A stretch of DNA of 64,000 nt from contig JAFXSG010000025.1 of the NCBI GenBank assembly GCA_017525875.1, positions 1-64,000 of the forward strand, given 5' to 3'. The notes under the pieces are model-generated. The model searched no databases and had not been told where the DNA came from. It saw nothing but the letters and a program-made list of their open reading frames with translations. This document shows positions 5,382 to 63,667 of the stretch, piece by piece. The position numbers were made by a program, and so were the translations under genes. The DNA is from Clostridia bacterium. GTDB lineage: Bacteria > Bacillota > Clostridia > Christensenellales > CAG-138. Each line of letters starts with the position of its first letter. Position 1 is the first letter of the stretch.

Positions 5382-5416
5382 TTCACAAAACCCTTGAAAT
5401 GAGGTATAATATAGTC
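5382..5416 (+). promoter_or_regulatory. SigA promoter abutting the nadD start (leaderless type)
   Basis: TTCACA (5382-5387), 17 bases, TATAAT (5405-5410), then only six bases (ATAGTC) before ATG. Transcription would be expected to begin at or next to the A of the start codon. No Shine-Dalgarno precedes the ATG. Confidence 0.75.
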
Positions 5417-6580
5417 ATGAAGATCGGTATCTACGGCGGAACATTCGACCCGGTGCATAACGGGCACATATCGATCGCGAAAGCGGTCAAAAACGAACTT
5501 GGCCTAAGCAAGGTCTTTTTCGTCGTTGCCGCAGACCCGCCGCATAAGCACGATCCTTCAAGAACGCCTGCTGCAGTCCGCTTTAAAATGATGAAGCAAA
5601 CGCTGTGGTACAAGCGCGGTCTGATAGCTTCGGATATCGAGATCGCCAGGGGAGGCGTGAGCTACACGGCAGAGACCCTCGAACAGTTCAAAAAGCTGTA
5701 TCCGGAAGCCGAGCTTTACTTCATCGTCGGGGCGGATATGCTTGCAAACTTTCCGACTTGGTACCGGCCGGATCGCATCCTGGAGCTTTCGCAGCTGACG
5801 GCCGTTCAGCGAATGGGGCAGGAGGAGGATCTCAAAGCGCTTGAAAAACGGATCGAAACCGACTTCGGCGGCAACATAATCGTCACAAGAGTATGCGGGC
5901 CGGATATCTCTTCAACGGAAGTCAGGCGAAGGATGCTCGAAGCAAAGCCGATCAGCGATATCGTGCCGTTCCAAACGGAGCTGTTTATCTATGAAAACAT
6001 GCTCTACATGCCGGACGAACTGAAGCAGATCAAAGAAAAGCTCGCCGGATCGCTCGATCCGGAGCGGCTTCGCCACTCTTTACTGACTGTGCGGGAAGCG
6101 ATCCTGCTTGCCGAAAAACACGGGCTCGATACCGAAAAAGCAAGGCTGTGCGCGCTCGTTCATGACTGTGCGAAGCTGCGCGGAGAAAAGCTCTCGGCAT
6201 GCATGCGGCGCGTAGGCTTTGTACCGACTGCGGATGAAGAACAGAACCCCTACCTGATCCATGCAAGGCTCGGCGCTATGACTGCAAAAGCCGAATTCGG
6301 TATCGAGGATCCGGAGATATTGACCGCGATAGAGCGTCATACTTTGGGCAGCCCGGATATGACGCCGTTTGATGAAGTGATCTTCCTTGCGGACAAGCTC
6401 GAACCGACGCGCGAGTACCGCAGCGTCGCTTCAATGCGCAAGCTTGCATACAAAAACCTGGATGAGGCTGTTGCCGCGGTCATTCGCAACAACGTGGAAT
6501 ACACCGAATCCATCGGCAAACCCGTTCACAGCTCCACGATGAGCACGCTTGCGGCTATAGAAACAAGAATAAAATCATAA
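5417..6580 (+). CDS. nadD: NadD-YqeK fusion: nicotinate-nucleotide adenylyltransferase plus HD-domain phosphohydrolase
   Basis: A 387-residue two-domain protein. Residues 1-195 are NadD, which joins nicotinate mononucleotide and ATP to give deamido-NAD: the nucleotidyltransferase motif GTFDPVHNGH is at 8-17 and ISSTEVRRRM near 164-175. Residues about 205-385 are a YqeK-type HD domain (H220, H249-D250), a family known to hydrolyse symmetrical diadenosine tetraphosphate. In Bacillus nadD and yqeK are separate adjacent genes; here they are fused, a combination known from other Clostridia. The ATG at 5417 is preferred over an upstream ATG at 5399, because the -10 box lies between them. rsfS follows 17 bases later, the usual order. 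Confidence 0.93.
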   Translation: MKIGIYGGTFDPVHNGHISIAKAVKNELGLSKVFFVVAADPPHKHDPSRTPAAVRFKMMKQTLWYKRGLIASDIEIARGGVSYTAETLEQFKKLYPEAELYFIVGADMLANFPTWYRPDRILELSQLTAVQRMGQEEDLKALEKRIETDFGGNIIVTRVCGPDISSTEVRRRMLEAKPISDIVPFQTELFIYENMLYMPDELKQIKEKLAGSLDPERLRHSLLTVREAILLAEKHGLDTEKARLCALVHDCAKLRGEKLSACMRRVGFVPTADEEQNPYLIHARLGAMTAKAEFGIEDPEILTAIERHTLGSPDMTPFDEVIFLADKLEPTREYRSVASMRKLAYKNLDEAVAAVIRNNVEYTESIGKPVHSSTMSTLAAIETRIKS

Positions 6581-47575: not shown

Positions 47576-49096
47576 ATGGAGCTCGCTCCGGAGATACTGA
47601 ACAAAAACAGGATCGCGAACTATCGCCCGGTATTCGTATTCGCGTTGGGCTTGATGCTCGGCGTCGCCGCTTGCGGATCGCTTGAAAACACCGGAGTGAT
47701 ATTGCTTGCGGTCCTGCTTGCTGTCTTCGCGGGAGCGCTCTTCATACTCAGATCAAAACGCTTTGCCGTTTTCGTTATTGCGATCATCATCGGGCTTTCG
47801 TTAGCTTTTCTGAATAAACCGAAGGCGTTTCAGGCCGGAAACTGCTCCATATCAGGGGTGGTTATCGATTCGTACAGATCGGACGACGCTGCGGTGCTCA
47901 TACTTAAGCGCTGCACTGTAAACGGCGAAAGCTATAACAAGCGGATCGAGCTGCTTCTTAATGATAGCCCGGAGCTCAGGATCGGCGATGAGGTCAGCGC
48001 GCTGGCCGACTGCAGGATGCTTCGCAGCAGGACTGACCAGTACAGCGAGTATTCTTCAAAGCTTTCGATCGGGATCGGCTGCGTGGCTTCGGCGAGGGAG
48101 ATAAACGTTTTGTCCTCGCACAACGCGCCTCTCACAGAGCTCACGATGGGCCTGAGAAACAGCATAAAGGACCGAATAGACGGAGCCTTCGGCAGTGATT
48201 CCGGTATATTCAACGCGCTTATCATAGGCGTTAAAAACGAAGTTGGGGATGAACGATACACCGTCTTCAGTGCGGTCGGCACTTCGCATCTTCTCGCGAT
48301 ATCCGGCCTGCATATGAGTATCCTCGTCGCGTGTGTCTCGGCATTGATACCGAAACGGAAGAAATGGCTTAAGCTCGTTCTTCTCGGCGCGTTCATGCTC
48401 GTTTACTGCACCGTTGCCGCCTATGCTCCGGGACTTGTGAGAGCGGCGATAATGATGTTTACAATGCTCGCCGCGGACTGCTTCGGAAGGCAGCGCGATT
48501 CGCTCTCCGCACTTTCGATCGCTGCTGTAGCGATACTTGCTTTCTGCCCGTATCAGCTCTATTCGATCGGGTTCCAACTATCGTTTTCGGCCTGCTTCGG
48601 CATTATCCTGCTCACAAGGTCTCTTGGCAAGGGCATTTCAAAAGCGCACGTACCTGCGTTCATTGCTCAGCCTGCGGCTGTTTGCTTAGCTGCGGCATTG
48701 GGCACTTTTTCGTTCCAAATGCGCTATTTCAAGAGCTTTACGCCATACGCGCTTATTGCCAACCTGGCCGTTGTTCCGCTGTTCTCGATCGTTATCATAA
48801 CGGCTTTTGCTATTACTGTAATTGCATTCATCTCCCCGGGCATAGCTTCTGCAGCCGCCATAGTACCGCGCAGCATACTCTTCTGCGTTGAAAAGCTCCT
48901 GTCGCTTCTCGGAAGGCTGCCTTTTGCCGAGTTCCGGTTCAGGCCGCCCTCGATGATTTGCTGCGTGATCTGGCTTGTGATGCTGTTTGCGGTCTCCGAG
49001 TACACGCTGCGACCGCGCAGCAAGCGATCTATATACGCGGCATGCATGATGGTGTTGTTTACAACCGTTTATTTTGCAGGTATAATAAGGGCATGA
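47576..49096 (+). CDS. comEC: ComEC/Rec2-family DNA-uptake membrane protein, short form
   Basis: 506 residues. Three helices at the N-terminus, an OB-like soluble part (about 85-175) and the competence domain with HLLAISGLHMSIL, YAPGLVRAAIMM and GFQLSFSACFGIILL. ComEC carries single-stranded DNA across the membrane. The C-terminal metallo-beta-lactamase domain of full-length ComEC (about 750 residues) is missing; the sequence ends in membrane helices and no such domain follows. Its 3' end holds a promoter-like sequence for holA and overlaps its start (ATGA). No strong Shine-Dalgarno before the start. Confidence 0.88.
   Translation: MELAPEILNKNRIANYRPVFVFALGLMLGVAACGSLENTGVILLAVLLAVFAGALFILRSKRFAVFVIAIIIGLSLAFLNKPKAFQAGNCSISGVVIDSYRSDDAAVLILKRCTVNGESYNKRIELLLNDSPELRIGDEVSALADCRMLRSRTDQYSEYSSKLSIGIGCVASAREINVLSSHNAPLTELTMGLRNSIKDRIDGAFGSDSGIFNALIIGVKNEVGDERYTVFSAVGTSHLLAISGLHMSILVACVSALIPKRKKWLKLVLLGAFMLVYCTVAAYAPGLVRAAIMMFTMLAADCFGRQRDSLSALSIAAVAILAFCPYQLYSIGFQLSFSACFGIILLTRSLGKGISKAHVPAFIAQPAAVCLAAALGTFSFQMRYFKSFTPYALIANLAVVPLFSIVIITAFAITVIAFISPGIASAAAIVPRSILFCVEKLLSLLGRLPFAEFRFRPPSMICCVIWLVMLFAVSEYTLRPRSKRSIYAACMMVLFTTVYFAGIIRA
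49058..49092 (+). promoter_or_regulatory. promoter-like sequence abutting the holA start (leaderless type)
   Basis: TTTACA (49058-49063), 17 bases, TATAAT (49081-49086), six bases, ATG. It lies within comEC codons. The same geometry is seen at nadD and uvrC. Confidence 0.55.
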
Positions 49097-50088
49097 AAAA
49101 GGAAAGGTTTCTTGAAAAGCTCAATAACGGCGCCATAAGCGGAGCGTATCTCATCCACGGCGATGAGGATTTCTTCAAAGAAGCGGCCATCAGGACCGCG
49201 CAGGAGCTCATCCCGGAGGATCTTCGTGCTTTCAACCTGACGGTCCTTTACGAGCCGGACGTTGCGAAACTCAGTGAGATCTGCGAGACCATGCCGCTGT
49301 TCATGGAAAAAACGCTCGTGATCGCCCGGGAGCTTGCAAAATCTACCGACGCCGGCAAACTGATGGAGTATATCGATCGCATGTCGCCGTCAACGGTCCT
49401 GCTGATATGTCTGAAGGATAAGCTCGACGCCAACTCCGCTCTTTTAAAACGCTTTGCAAAGGTCGACAGGGACGTTCTTTTCACAAAGGTCGAACCCGGC
49501 GATGCAATGAAGTGGTGCATGGCGACCGCAGTTTCAAACGGCGTGTCGCTTTCCGCAGGCGTCGCGAGAACGTTTGTCGGCGTAGTCGGTTCCGATATGT
49601 CGAACGTCAGCAACGAACTGCAAAAGCTGATCGACAGAGTGGGGCCGGGCGGCACAATTACCGCGGAGCTCGTTTCATCGAGCGTGATCGGGAACGTTGA
49701 ATCAAAGGTTTTCAGCATGCTCGATTGCTTCACGGCAGGTAAAGTGAAGGACGGGATGCGTTCGCTCCGAGCGCTTCTGAACGAGGACAGGGACGCACCG
49801 CGAAAAGTCGTCGGCTTCCTCGAATCAAGGCTCAAGCTGATGCTCCAGGGGAAAAAGCTGATGCAGACGGGTATGAGTCCCAAGCAGGCAGCTCAAAAGA
49901 TGGAGGGCAATTCATACGCTAACGAAATGGCCTGCAAAGCAGCGCTCAAATACAGCTACGAAAGCCTGCGCTCGCTGCTTGCAGACATCTCGCTGATCGT
50001 CTATAATAACATCACCGGGGCAGGGGGCGGTATCTCAACGGAACTCGAAGCCGTGATGATAGCCTTCGACTGGGAACGAAAACATTAA
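49093..50088 (+). CDS. holA: DNA polymerase III delta subunit
   Basis: 331 residues. The clamp-loader delta subunit; GAYLIHGDEDFFKEAAI at the N-terminus, a degenerate AAA+ fold, then VFSMLDCFTAGKVKDGMRSL and the C-terminal collar domain (AALKYSYESLRSLLADI). It opens the beta clamp during loading. ATG at 49093 overlaps the comEC stop, so translation may be coupled, or initiated without a leader from the promoter just upstream. rpsT converges on it, an arrangement common in Firmicutes. Confidence 0.92.
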   Translation: MKKERFLEKLNNGAISGAYLIHGDEDFFKEAAIRTAQELIPEDLRAFNLTVLYEPDVAKLSEICETMPLFMEKTLVIARELAKSTDAGKLMEYIDRMSPSTVLLICLKDKLDANSALLKRFAKVDRDVLFTKVEPGDAMKWCMATAVSNGVSLSAGVARTFVGVVGSDMSNVSNELQKLIDRVGPGGTITAELVSSSVIGNVESKVFSMLDCFTAGKVKDGMRSLRALLNEDRDAPRKVVGFLESRLKLMLQGKKLMQTGMSPKQAAQKMEGNSYANEMACKAALKYSYESLRSLLADISLIVYNNITGAGGGISTELEAVMIAFDWERKH

Positions 50089-58562: not shown

Positions 58563-59894
58563 TCAGTTTGCGGGAATGTCGTTCACGGTGGAGGCAAACA
58601 GCACCGCGCCGGTGGAGGCGTGAACGATCGCCATCGCGTAAGGACGGTTGCAGACGAGGCTGTGCTCCATGTCCACGAATATCGTTCCGCCGTTTTTCGT
58701 TCCGGTAACGCCGGTCGCGGCGGCGGCTTCGGTGCCGGCTTCGGTCACTTTGAGCACGGAAGCGTGCACGAACTGGGTGAGCTGAATGGTCGCGTTGTCA
58801 ACGATCCCTCCGAACTGCATGTTGCCGCTTGAGACGCCTTCAAGACCGAGGCCGGGAAGGATCTCCATCGCGTCGAACTTGGTGCTGAGCTCGATCGAGG
58901 GCATTGTCAGCGAAACGGAAGCTTCGCTGCATTCGCCGAAATGATCGATGACGGCTGCAAGCGCGGCGGCGGGGGAGGAGGACTTTTCGGGAAGGACGAC
59001 CGCCATATAGAACTCGCCGCCTGCGTAAGGCACGAGCACGACCTGATGTCCGCCGAACTCGCCGTATGCGAATTTCTCACCGTCACAGCGCAGCATGCTG
59101 ACGGCCGCGTCGCCGTTCACTCCGTGGAAAATGCTGTCGGCCTCATCGAAGCCGCGGTAGGCGACGAACGGCTTTTCCCATCTGGCGTTGAAATAAAGTG
59201 CGTTGAGAAGCGCCATGGTCGTATCGGCTGAGATATCGTCAAACAGCGCGGGGATGAGCCCGTTGGTATTATTGCTGACCCAGCCGTTGATCTCTTCAAG
59301 CGCGGCCTGCGTGTTCGTAAAATCGATAGCGCCGATCGAAGCGTTGTAGTAGTCGGCCGCGTTGTGCTCGAAATCCTCGCTGAAACGCTCGCCGTTCGCA
59401 ACGAGGATCGCGCTCAGCAGATTCAGCTTTGCGGAGCCATCGGCTCTCCTGACTTTGTCCGCGTCCGCACCGGTAACGGCCTTAACGGAGCGCTCGAGCG
59501 CGGTGATGAGTCGTGCGGCGTTCTCGTTCGTCGCCTCCATGCCGAGCTCGGTCATAAGCGCGTCGAGTATCACCTTACTGTCCTGTTCACCCGCGCCGTT
59601 AGCAAGCAGCTCAAGCATCATCGCGAATGAGAGCGGCGATACCACGCCGGTCCAGTCCTCGCCCATGTTGTCCATAAGAGCGACGGTAAAACGGTTCATA
59701 GAGGCGATGTATGCCTTTTCGATATCGCCTTTTGCAGCGTAGCCGGTACCGGCTGCGAGATGGATGGAGCCGACGGGAGCGGCGGTCGGATCGGCATTCT
59801 GATTGCCGGGCGTGACCTTATTGCAGCCCGCAAAGGCGGAAAGCGCAAGAATGAGAGCAAGCGCAAGCGCGATATTCCTGATATGTTTTTTCAT
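58563..59894 (-). CDS. serpin-family protease inhibitor, lipoprotein
   Basis: 443 residues. A signal peptide with lipobox SAFAGC anchors it outside the cell, then about 40 residues of linker, then a serpin fold: VVSPLSFAMMLELLANGA, LLNALYFNARWEKPF, the breach region and FGGIVDNATIQLTQFVHASVLKVTEAGTEAAAATG-type hinge. The hinge (G387-T-E-A-A-A-A-T394) has the small residues required for loop insertion, so it should inhibit serine or cysteine proteases. The scissile P1 residue cannot be fixed; it lies in or near the segment TKNGG. The C-terminal CNRPYAMAI is the usual last strand. AAGGAG precedes ATG. It could protect the cell from gut or own proteases. Confidence 0.9.
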   Translation of the reverse strand: MKKHIRNIALALALILALSAFAGCNKVTPGNQNADPTAAPVGSIHLAAGTGYAAKGDIEKAYIASMNRFTVALMDNMGEDWTGVVSPLSFAMMLELLANGAGEQDSKVILDALMTELGMEATNENAARLITALERSVKAVTGADADKVRRADGSAKLNLLSAILVANGERFSEDFEHNAADYYNASIGAIDFTNTQAALEEINGWVSNNTNGLIPALFDDISADTTMALLNALYFNARWEKPFVAYRGFDEADSIFHGVNGDAAVSMLRCDGEKFAYGEFGGHQVVLVPYAGGEFYMAVVLPEKSSSPAAALAAVIDHFGECSEASVSLTMPSIELSTKFDAMEILPGLGLEGVSSGNMQFGGIVDNATIQLTQFVHASVLKVTEAGTEAAAATGVTGTKNGGTIFVDMEHSLVCNRPYAMAIVHASTGAVLFASTVNDIPAN

Positions 59895-59988: not shown

Positions 59989-60023
59989 TTCACATTTTGC
60001 CCAAAAAAGATTATAATAGGGCT
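59989..60023 (+). promoter_or_regulatory. SigA promoter abutting the uvrC start (leaderless type)
   Basis: TTCACA (59989-59994), 17 bases, TATAAT (60012-60017), AGGGCT, ATG. Same hexamers and same six-base gap as nadD. Confidence 0.75.
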
Positions 60024-61874
60024 ATGAACAACGTGATAGAGGAAAAACTGAAGCTGCTGCCCGACAAGCCCGGCGTTTACAAAATGTATAACGGCAGGGG
60101 AGAGCTGATCTATGTCGGCAAGGCGGTGAACCTGAAGAACAGGGTCCGCCAGTATTTCCAGTCCTCCCGAAATCACACGGAGAAGGTCCGCGCAATGGTG
60201 TCGAACATCGAGGATCTCGATTTCATCATCGTCGGCAACGAGACCGAAGCGCTTAACCTCGAATGCAACCTCATCAAGCAGAACCAACCGTATTATAACA
60301 TACTGCTCAAGGATGACAAGCACTTTCCGTACGTTCGCATCGATTTTCGCAGGGATTTTCCCCGGGTGGAGATCGTTAGGCGCTTCAAAAAGGACGGCGC
60401 CAAATACTTCGGCCCGTTTTTGAGCGCGGTACAGCTGCGCGAGATCATAACCGCCGTGCGCGAGAACTTCCCGGTCCGCCAGTGCAAAAACGATATCTCA
60501 AAGATGATCGCGCGGCACGAGAGGCCCTGCCTGATGTATCATATCGGCAAATGCTGTGCACCCTGCACCGGAAAGGTCACGCGGGAGGAATACCACGCGC
60601 TCGTGAACGAGATCGCCTCTCTCTTCCGCGGCAACGGCAGCGCGTATATAAAAGAGCTCACAGAGCAGATGCAGAAGGAGTCCGACGCGCTCAATTTCGA
60701 AAAAGCGGCGCGCATCCGCGACAGGATAAAAGCCGTAAAGACCATAACCGAAAAGCAGACGGCCGCCTCCGCAAGCGATAAGTGCTACGACGTGTTCGCT
60801 CTCGCGAGGGACGAGTTTTCAACGCTTGCCTACGGTCTTTTCGTGCGAGGCGGCAACGTGATCGTTGCGGAGAGCTTCAAGCTCGACTCGATGAACGAGC
60901 CGTTTTCGGAAGTCATCTCCCAATTCCTCGCACAGTTCTATATCGATTCCGGCGACGTCCCGCGTGAGATCGTGATAATGGACGAGGCGGACGAGCGCGA
61001 AGCGCTTGAAAAGCTGCTCACCGAGCAAAGCGGGCATGCGGTCAGGATCCACGTCCCGCAGCGCGGCGAAAAACTGAAGCAGGGCGAAATGGCGAGGCTC
61101 AACGCGCAGCAGACGCTTGCAAGGAGCCGCGAGCTCATCCATCGGGAATGGGAACGCGGCGAGGGCGCGCTCAATGAGCTCTGCCGCGTGATAGGGCTCG
61201 AGCTGACGCCGCACAGGATGGAATGCTTCGACAACTCCCACATGCAGGGCAGGGATACGGTAGGCTCCATGGTCGTGTTTATCGACGGCAAGCCCGATAA
61301 AACGCTGTATCGCCGTTTCAGAACAAAACAGGACGCGAACGGGGACGATTACCTCGCCATGCGCGAGCATCTGACCCGAAGGTTCGAGCGGACGCTTGCC
61401 GGTGACGAAAAGTTTGCCGAGCTGCCCGACCTGCTCGTCGTTGACGGCGGCCGAGGCCAGCTTAACGTTGCGCTTGAAGTGCTTTCGGAGTTCGGGCTTT
61501 CGCACATCCCGGCGATCGGTCTTGCGGAGCAAAATGAAGAGATCATTCTGCCGGAAAGCGATGAACCCATCGTGCTGCCGCGCAGCAGTCCGGCACTCCA
61601 GCTTTTGCAGCGCATCCGCGACGAAGCGCACCGCTTTGCGATCACTTATCACCGGAGCCTTAGGGCAAAGAGTTCCCTCTATTCAAAGCTCGATGAGATA
61701 CCCGGTATCGGCGACGCGCGCAAACGCGAACTGTACGGGCATTTCCAAACGATCGACGCGATAAGCATGGCGGACGTTGCCGAGCTTCGAAGCGTCCGCG
61801 GAATGAATATACGCGCAGCGCAGAGCGTTTACGACTATTTCCACCCTCAGAACACGGATCCGGAGACAGAATGA
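60024..61874 (+). CDS. uvrC: excinuclease ABC subunit C
   Basis: 616 residues. GIY-YIG nuclease domain at 1-95 (PGVYKMYNGRGELIYVGKA), a cysteine-containing stretch (CLMYHIGKCCAPC), UVR domain (about 200-235), RNase H-like C-terminal nuclease (ECFDNSHMQG; LLVVDGGRGQLN) and tandem helix-hairpin-helix at the end. It cuts on both sides of the lesion in nucleotide excision repair. ATG at 60024 follows the -10 box by six bases; a TTG at 59997 would lie inside the promoter. Confidence 0.97.
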   Translation: MNNVIEEKLKLLPDKPGVYKMYNGRGELIYVGKAVNLKNRVRQYFQSSRNHTEKVRAMVSNIEDLDFIIVGNETEALNLECNLIKQNQPYYNILLKDDKHFPYVRIDFRRDFPRVEIVRRFKKDGAKYFGPFLSAVQLREIITAVRENFPVRQCKNDISKMIARHERPCLMYHIGKCCAPCTGKVTREEYHALVNEIASLFRGNGSAYIKELTEQMQKESDALNFEKAARIRDRIKAVKTITEKQTAASASDKCYDVFALARDEFSTLAYGLFVRGGNVIVAESFKLDSMNEPFSEVISQFLAQFYIDSGDVPREIVIMDEADEREALEKLLTEQSGHAVRIHVPQRGEKLKQGEMARLNAQQTLARSRELIHREWERGEGALNELCRVIGLELTPHRMECFDNSHMQGRDTVGSMVVFIDGKPDKTLYRRFRTKQDANGDDYLAMREHLTRRFERTLAGDEKFAELPDLLVVDGGRGQLNVALEVLSEFGLSHIPAIGLAEQNEEIILPESDEPIVLPRSSPALQLLQRIRDEAHRFAITYHRSLRAKSSLYSKLDEIPGIGDARKRELYGHFQTIDAISMADVAELRSVRGMNIRAAQSVYDYFHPQNTDPETE

Positions 61875-63667
61875 ACATCAAACTCCTTGTTACCGACATC
61901 GACGATACGCTCGTCTACAAGTCCGGCCCGGTCTCGGAAGAGAACCTCAGGGCGATCCGCGCCGCAAGGGAAGCGGGCATTTACGTCACGCTCGCGACAG
62001 GGCGCGGCTATTTCGGCGCGTCCCGCGTCGTGAAGCAGCTCGGGCTCGACACGTTCGTCATCAACTACGGCGGCGCCGTTATAATGGACGCAAGCACGGA
62101 CAAGCCGATCTTCACGACCGAGCTCGAGAATAGCTACGTGCACGAGATACTTGGGATGGCAAACGAAATGGATCTTCACGCCCATCTCTACCAAGGCGAC
62201 TGCATCGTCTATGAAAAGCCGCATAAATACGCCAGCAATTACGTCGCAGCGCTCAATCTTCCGAGCAGGATCGATCCGGACATCCGCAAAAAAGTCTGGT
62301 CGGCCGTTCCGAAGGTGCTCATCATAACCGAGCCGGAACGCGTCCCGGAGCTGCTGCCGTTCTTCCAAAAGCATTTTGAGGGCAGGGTTGCGGTCTCCGG
62401 TTCTTCGCCGGGATTCATCGAGTTCAACCGCCTCGGTCAGAACAAAGGCACCGCCGTTGCTCAGCTTGCGAAAATGCTCGGGATAGAGCGCGAGAACGTG
62501 GCAGCCATCGGCGACAATACGCTCGATTACGAAATGATAGAATACGCGGGCGTCGGCGTCGTCGTCGAAAACGGGAACGAAAAGCTGAAGGCCATTGCGG
62601 ATGTGATAGTGCCGCCCTGCACCGAGAACGGCGTTGCCTATTTCATAAACAATTATCTTTTGAACGATCGGGAAACCGTTGAAAGAGGAGAAAACAACAT
62701 GTACAGCATCGGCTTTGATATCGGCGGAACGAACGTGGTCTGCGCACTGATGGACGACGGGTACAGGATAATCAAAAAGCTTTCGAGGCCTTTCAGAAAG
62801 AACGATTCCGGCTCGGAGGCCGGCGACGAGAGCTTTATCGCAAACGAGCTGAAAACGCTTGCCGAAGGCGTCTGCCGGGAATCGAACGTACCGCTCGAAG
62901 ACGTGCCGTCGGTCGGCGTCTGCATCCCGGGGAGCGTCGATACGGAACGCGGCATCGTGATAGACGCATACAACCTCGGCCTGCATGATTCTCATTTCCG
63001 CGACGCCGCCTGCAAGGCCATGAACAAGCCTGTGAGCCTACTGAACGATGCCGACGCCGCAGCGCTCGCGGAGCAGCGGCTCGGCGCGCTCGCCGAAACG
63101 AAGACCTCCATGCTCGTCACTATCGGGACGGGTATCGGCGTGGGGATCGTGCTTGACGGCAAGCTTTTCCATGGAGGCCGGGGCAACGGCGTTGAAGCGG
63201 GACACGTTCAGATGGATCTCCACGGTGAGCACTGCACCTGCGGAAGACGCGGCTGCATCGAAACGCTGTGCTCCGCCACAAGGCTCAATCGGGAAGCGGC
63301 AAAGCTGTTTGAAAGCGCCGAAGGCGAGACGAAGGCATACTACGAAAAGCTTGCCGCCTCCAACAAATTCGACGCAAAAGCCCTGATCGACGCCGCGAAG
63401 CAGGGCGATCCCGCGTGCGGAGCGATCTGGACTCAATACTTAAGCGACCTTGCGAACGCGCTCGGTTCATACATCAATATTCTCGATCCCGAGATGATCG
63501 CGATAGGCGGCGGGGTCAGCGGCGCGGGCGATTTCCTGACCGAACCGCTTATCGAGCTGACGGCGAAACAGTCGTTCTTCCGCACGCCGACGCCTATCGT
63601 CTGCGCAAAGCTCGGCAACGACGCCGGTCTCGTCGGCGCTGCGCTCTACGGAAGAGAGACTCTATAA
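61871..63667 (+). CDS. fusion of Cof-type HAD phosphatase and ROK-family sugar kinase
   Basis: One frame of 598 residues. Residues 1-265 are a Cof-like HAD hydrolase: nucleophile segment VTDIDDTL (D9, D11), TGRG, NYGGAVI and IGDNTLDYEMIEYAG. Residues 277-598 are a ROK kinase: ATP loop FDIGGTNVV (D283), GTGIGVGIV and the zinc motif H445 with C455-T-C457 and C462. The join NDRETVERGENNMYSIG contains, in DNA, AGAGGAG eight to nine bases before the in-frame ATG at 62699, so the kinase may also be made alone. Together it could dephosphorylate and phosphorylate sugars. The stop of uvrC overlaps its start (ATGA). Confidence 0.88.
   Translation: MNIKLLVTDIDDTLVYKSGPVSEENLRAIRAAREAGIYVTLATGRGYFGASRVVKQLGLDTFVINYGGAVIMDASTDKPIFTTELENSYVHEILGMANEMDLHAHLYQGDCIVYEKPHKYASNYVAALNLPSRIDPDIRKKVWSAVPKVLIITEPERVPELLPFFQKHFEGRVAVSGSSPGFIEFNRLGQNKGTAVAQLAKMLGIERENVAAIGDNTLDYEMIEYAGVGVVVENGNEKLKAIADVIVPPCTENGVAYFINNYLLNDRETVERGENNMYSIGFDIGGTNVVCALMDDGYRIIKKLSRPFRKNDSGSEAGDESFIANELKTLAEGVCRESNVPLEDVPSVGVCIPGSVDTERGIVIDAYNLGLHDSHFRDAACKAMNKPVSLLNDADAAALAEQRLGALAETKTSMLVTIGTGIGVGIVLDGKLFHGGRGNGVEAGHVQMDLHGEHCTCGRRGCIETLCSATRLNREAAKLFESAEGETKAYYEKLAASNKFDAKALIDAAKQGDPACGAIWTQYLSDLANALGSYINILDPEMIAIGGGVSGAGDFLTEPLIELTAKQSFFRTPTPIVCAKLGNDAGLVGAALYGRETL
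62684..62701 (+). promoter_or_regulatory. internal ribosome-binding site and start codon of the ROK half
   Basis: AGAGGAG followed after eight bases by ATG (62699-62701), in frame, at codon 277 of the fusion. Confidence 0.6.

Follow-up and report, generated by a model that had tools for sequence, protein, structure and literature searches.

Do the mRNAs of nadD, holA and uvrC in a clostridial genome carry a 5' leader at all? The question is raised by a 64,000-nucleotide stretch of DNA from a Clostridia bacterium of the order Christensenellales, family CAG-138 (GenBank assembly GCA_017525875.1, contig JAFXSG010000025.1, positions 1 to 64,000, hereafter the window), in which all three genes have promoter boxes that end just short of the start codon. 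Upstream of nadD, on the forward strand like the other two, a −35-like box TTCACA (5382–5387) and a −10 box TATAAT (5405–5410) are followed by the spacer ATAGTC and an ATG at 5417, which opens a nadD-yqeK-type fusion gene (5417–6580; Pfam CTP_transf_like and HD). The corresponding elements of holA, encoding DNA polymerase III delta (49093–50088; Pfam DNA_pol3_delta), are TTTACA (49058–49063), TATAAT (49081–49086), the spacer AAGGGC and an ATG at 49093, while those of uvrC (60024–61874; Pfam GIY-YIG, UVR and UvrC_RNaseH) are TTCACA (59989–59994), TATAAT (60012–60017), AGGGCT and an ATG at 60024. The geometry is the same in each case, the boxes being 17 bases apart and TATAAT six bases from the ATG (a spacing hereafter called N6). 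A sequence-only reading of the window had described exactly this arrangement, and the observation is confirmed, since the pattern is exact in the sequence at all three genes. Transcription usually starts seven bases after the −10 box, so that with the N6 spacing the usual start falls on the A of the ATG; the ATG of nadD, for example, is also its predicted transcription start.

We consider it very probable, judging from the sequence and its relatives, that the three genes are leaderless, each with a SigA-type promoter starting its RNA at the ATG, and that they represent a minority mode of initiation in the order. With a sigma-70/SigA-type housekeeping promoter so placed, RNA polymerase would begin at the A of the ATG, six bases separating the −10 box from +1. 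The nadD, holA and uvrC mRNAs would then have neither a 5' leader nor a Shine-Dalgarno (SD) sequence, and ribosomes would begin directly at the 5'-terminal AUG. Among the genes tested, this mode would be most persistent at holA and uvrC. What marks the genes as candidates is the placement of the −10 box, the lack of an SD sequence before the start and a start codon that appears correctly assigned, and the −35 box at 17 bases in nadD, holA and uvrC identifies the promoters as SigA-type. An SD-like motif, GAGGT, is present near nadD in the window; it runs into the −10 box and thus lies outside the predicted mRNA.

The assignment of the start codons seems sound, as judged by homology. Because the GGTFDP motif of NadD starts at residue 7, the nadD start cannot be further downstream, and an in-frame ATG at 5399 sits upstream of the −10 box. 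Most family matches of UvrC and NadD begin at residue 1. Matches to HolA start at residue 3–6 in most relatives, where the nearest codon was taken as the start.

The arrangement far exceeds what base composition would produce. The window has 9 occurrences of TATAAT followed by ATG at four to eight bases, whereas 100 shuffles average 0.83, and base composition predicts about 0.005 genes with an exact TATAAT at N6 among 52, where three were found.

Conservation of the spacing in relatives had been set beforehand as a test of the leaderless reading. Searching 61 genomes of the family, the window's own included, gave matches to NadD in 57, to UvrC in 56 and to HolA in 57, and the upstream DNA was read for each gene at the 30 family loci with the best scores, again including the window's own, so that the sample represents the closer relatives. 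Start codons were picked by homology, blind to the box, and a −10 box was counted with at most one mismatch to TATAAT. With these rules the −10 box lies at N6 in 20/30 loci of holA, 16/30 of uvrC and 8/30 of nadD, and no other single spacing between 0 and 40 accounts for more than 4 genes. The expectation thus holds for holA and uvrC and is only partly borne out at nadD. UvrC was followed further into the order: all of the 101 genomes searched gave a match, and among the 84 genes read from the 95 genomes outside the family, 25 have the −10 box at N6, spread over 11 of 31 families. When 149 genomes of a phylum-wide sample were searched with UvrC, 143 matched; among the 29 best matches outside the class, 0/29 have a −10 box anywhere from N0 to N18, and 19 have an SD-like motif.

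The sites with the N6 spacing also carry the other signals expected of a promoter. A match to the −35 box of at least 4/6 at 16–18 bases was found at 43/72 of them, as opposed to 3/72 at the control distance of 22–24 bases, 9/72 at 9–11 bases and 12–15% in shuffled sequence (this count let the start codon vary, hence 72 sites rather than the 69 used below). Taken gene by gene, such a −35 match is present at 8/9 N6 sites of nadD and 13/22 of holA, and the weakest set is uvrC of the window's own family with 7/16. An SD-like motif occurs in 3/79 genes that have a −10 box at N5–7 compared to 40/95 genes that do not. A C or T, as would be expected just before a transcription start, precedes the start codon in 68/69 N6 sites of this family and the other families combined. 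This pyrimidine test is weaker than first appeared, because a pyrimidine also precedes the ATG at 62% and 66% of the SD-led ATG starts in two genomes.

How common is this arrangement in the window's own genome? Over the whole genome the full promoter pattern (TTNACA, 16–18 bases, TATAAT, four to eight bases, ATG) occurs 18 times compared to 0 for the reversed pattern, and TATAAT at five to seven bases from an ATG occurs 90 times compared to 15. We considered counting every one of these 90 places as leaderless and rejected this. The N6 spacing is present at 26 of them. A pyrimidine stands at −1 in 22 of the 26 (P about 0.01), which is modest support, because SD-led starts are so often preceded by a pyrimidine themselves. 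Of these 22 sites, 16 open a reading frame of at least 100 aa, the three in the window included, and two of the 16 (L094 and L107) look like ordinary genes that have a leader and start later, as judged by eye from the protein starts. Two places in this genome, L116:823-1503 and L151:113-802, have near-identical protein starts (MIYLTGDIHG), each directly after TATAAT at N6; the former is a metallophosphoesterase by Pfam and the latter was called its paralogue by eye.

On a gene basis the class is small. A sample of 398 kb (about 16% of the genome) in which 303 genes were called has a −10 box at N6, one mismatch allowed, before 4/303 genes, three of which are nadD, holA and uvrC, so that about 1% of the sampled genes belong to it. 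Where an exact TATAAT lies within 80 bases of a candidate ATG, it is mostly at least 30 bases upstream, as in ordinary leadered genes. The sequence-only reading had regarded the three genes as a distinct initiation class set among genes of which nearly all have a good SD site. The leaderless interpretation itself is supported by the comparisons above, and so is the idea of a distinct class, with the amendment that it is a small one here; the statement about SD sites was somewhat too strong, as a loose or better SD motif is present at some candidate start in 226/303 sampled genes.

The immediate neighbourhood of uvrC in the window holds two further genes, a divergent serpin-type protease inhibitor gene (58563–59894) and, downstream at 61871–63667, one for a HAD-type hydrolase with a fused ROK-family domain.

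The class is more abundant elsewhere in the order. In a 400 kb sample of genome G320, from family f96, the −10 box lies at N6 in 12/320 genes (about 4%), with a pyrimidine at −1 in 12/12 and an SD motif in 0/12. Other spacings with relaxed boxes account for fewer genes (N4 5, N5 4, N7 4 and N9 8), N9 being second to N6 among N0–N15. Sites with N6 and a pyrimidine at −1 were read in this genome (33/39) and in a second one of the same family, G305 (10/32), and 31 of these 43 sites are followed by an open reading frame of at least 100 aa. Of the 29 such frames in G320, 20 were scanned; among them are SmpB, UvrC, a GidB-type methyltransferase, a class-V aminotransferase, a cytidine-deaminase-type protein and several helix-turn-helix proteins.

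To describe the pattern at the level of whole genomes, we counted TATAAT, five bases, a pyrimidine and ATG in 121 genomes of the order, and found 2833 occurrences compared to 1361 when three more bases are inserted (N9) and 1031 for the reversed pattern; the N6 count exceeds the N9 count in 102/121 genomes. Outside the order, 148 genomes of the phylum sample give 2332 occurrences as opposed to 1973 reversed, the N9 control having been run within the order only. The ratio of N6 to N9 is 1.7 in the window's own family and reaches 3.4–4.4 in f98, f110, f88 and f96 (five or six genomes each) and in f112, f89 and f93 (one each). Because N9 also holds genes with leaders of about three bases it is no pure background, and these ratios may understate the effect. 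The f110 genomes are very small (G235, G258, G278 and G313 of 0.8–0.9 Mb, and G296 of 1.1 Mb); their excess is among the strongest (140 at N6 versus 32 at N9, summed over five genomes), and their uvrC has the −10 box at N6 in only 1/4 genes read.

A number of observations weigh against leaderless initiation as a conserved property of these genes and of the order. An exact TATAAT before nadD is found in the 30 family loci at N6 in 7, N7 in 4, N8 in 3 and N9 in 1, and such a range among relatives would mean leaders of 0–3 bases. An SD-like motif is present, and a close −10 box lacking, before 11 nadD, 3 uvrC and 3 holA genes (30 each), as well as before 23/84 uvrC genes of other families; a conserved SD sequence in relatives had been named in advance as an outcome that would speak against the idea, and it is thus partly seen. 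Neither box nor SD-like motif was found at 7 nadD, 8 uvrC and 5 holA genes of the same sets, and three further genomes of the family lack the box at uvrC. The genomes share descent, so the counts are not independent. In the two f96 genomes, the N9 control sites also open a reading frame of at least 100 aa (11/17), and arbitrary ATGs do so in 77/230 cases. In ten of the 33 families covered by the pattern count (f84, f86, f94, f97, f104, f105, f108, f109, f113 and f115) N6 is essentially no commoner than N9, with ratios of 0.5–1.12, some of them from a single genome; one of these families, f113, has an exact TATAAT at N6 in 2/4 uvrC genes read and TATGAT in one. A few genomes outside the order are also in excess (e.g., 21 versus 3 and 19 versus 3), so the property may extend to other members of the phylum.

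Two alternatives stay close to the leaderless reading and seem to us about equally unlikely, without being far-fetched. One is that flexible start choice gives ultra-short leaders of one to three bases, in which case ribosomes would still initiate as on leaderless mRNAs. The range of exact boxes at nadD is what this would produce, as is the second rank of N9 in G320, where holA-like and tmk-like genes were recognized by eye at N9 (both also in G305, together with a leuS-like gene); the N6 peak and the pyrimidine at −1 in uvrC and holA point instead to the A of the ATG. The other concerns holA alone, whose ATG in the window shares bases with the stop codon of the preceding comEC-like gene in the sequence ATGA (49093–49096), an overlap that the sequence-only reading had passed over. 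Both promoter boxes of holA lie inside this comEC-like gene (47576–49096, forward strand; Pfam Competence PF03772), the −10 box at its very end, so that its last codons hold the promoter. Translation of holA mainly by coupling, with the internal promoter minor or unused, is suggested by the overlap and by the position of the promoter inside a reading frame. Against this stands the persistence of the −10 box at N6 in 20/30 family loci though the surrounding DNA largely differs, and the two modes are compatible with each other, so that coupling to the upstream gene may act in parallel.

It is much less probable that the transcripts begin further upstream and carry an SD-independent leader, with TATAAT being incidental or serving as an AT-rich unstructured ribosome site. 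Such leaders would explain the uvrC genes that lack both a −10 box near the start and an SD-like motif (8/30 in the family and 35/84 in other families), but an AT-rich ribosome site needs no fixed N6 spacing, no −35 box at 16–18 bases and no pyrimidine at −1, and 67 and 129 bases separate nadD and uvrC, respectively, from the start of a divergent open reading frame. Chance placement of AT-rich hexamers is hardly credible. Isolated pairs of TATAAT and ATG do arise in this way, as the shuffled windows show, but not three exact N6 genes among 52, and not their recurrence at orthologous genes of relatives. The simplest account of the data as a whole is leaderless transcription that persists by descent. 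The actual 5' ends, leaderless translation and inheritance as opposed to repeated gain are all inferred here from sequence comparison, and the same applies to any benefit, such as steady expression independent of SD recognition.

A stronger version of this account, in which leaderless initiation is an ancestral and selected trait of the order with uvrC (DNA repair) and holA (clamp loader) in its core, kept while many families diverged, and with an expansion to several per cent of genes in f88, f96, f98 and f110, is a tentative proposal that we would rate somewhat below an even chance. In that case the core genes would stay leaderless because their expression must not depend on SD recognition. 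Whether or not selection is involved, the alternation of orthologues between leadered and leaderless states among genera and families lends itself to a comparative study of why the leaderless state is kept. There is also a practical consequence, as gene finders that expect an SD sequence can mis-start such genes.

Leaderless genes are a known kind (leaderless translation is reviewed in PMC9031893), and the order is a new addition, through which a clostridial-type order joins the groups with credible leaderless genes. No report of leaderless genes in the order was found in the open-access library searched, which is a weak negative since the search was made without the order's name. Leaderless genes were described in 207 of 953 bacterial genomes by Zheng et al. 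(2011; PMC3160421), with those of Firmicutes concentrated in Lactobacillales and Mycoplasma, so the view in the sequence-only reading that leaderless mRNAs are rare in Firmicutes has to be amended to this extent. The genes described here resemble the TA-led genes of that study, in which the SD sequence is replaced by a TANNNT −10 box some 12 bases upstream of the start codon. The difference is that the spacing is traced here at named orthologues in a clostridial-type order, while the word Clostridi is absent from the main text of that paper. A start map of Clostridioides difficile 630 lists 15 potentially leaderless genes for a clostridial member, its main text making no mention of uvrC, nadD or holA (PMC7438776).

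A similar architecture is found in the leaderless mRNAs of Campylobacter jejuni and Helicobacter, which have gnTAnaAT, five to nine bases and an ATG with no ribosome site, and where, among 19 leaders shorter than 10 nt, 12 begin with the start codon's first base (PMC3847290). DNA-repair genes are among the leaderless genes there, as among the candidates here, and leaderless mRNAs have been argued to be helpful under stress (PMC3847290). In the Epsilonproteobacteria the leaderless state is described as poorly conserved, and the only universally leaderless gene is one located upstream of uvrC, rather than uvrC itself (PMC3847290), whereas in the present order it is the box of uvrC that recurs, in 11 families besides that of the window.
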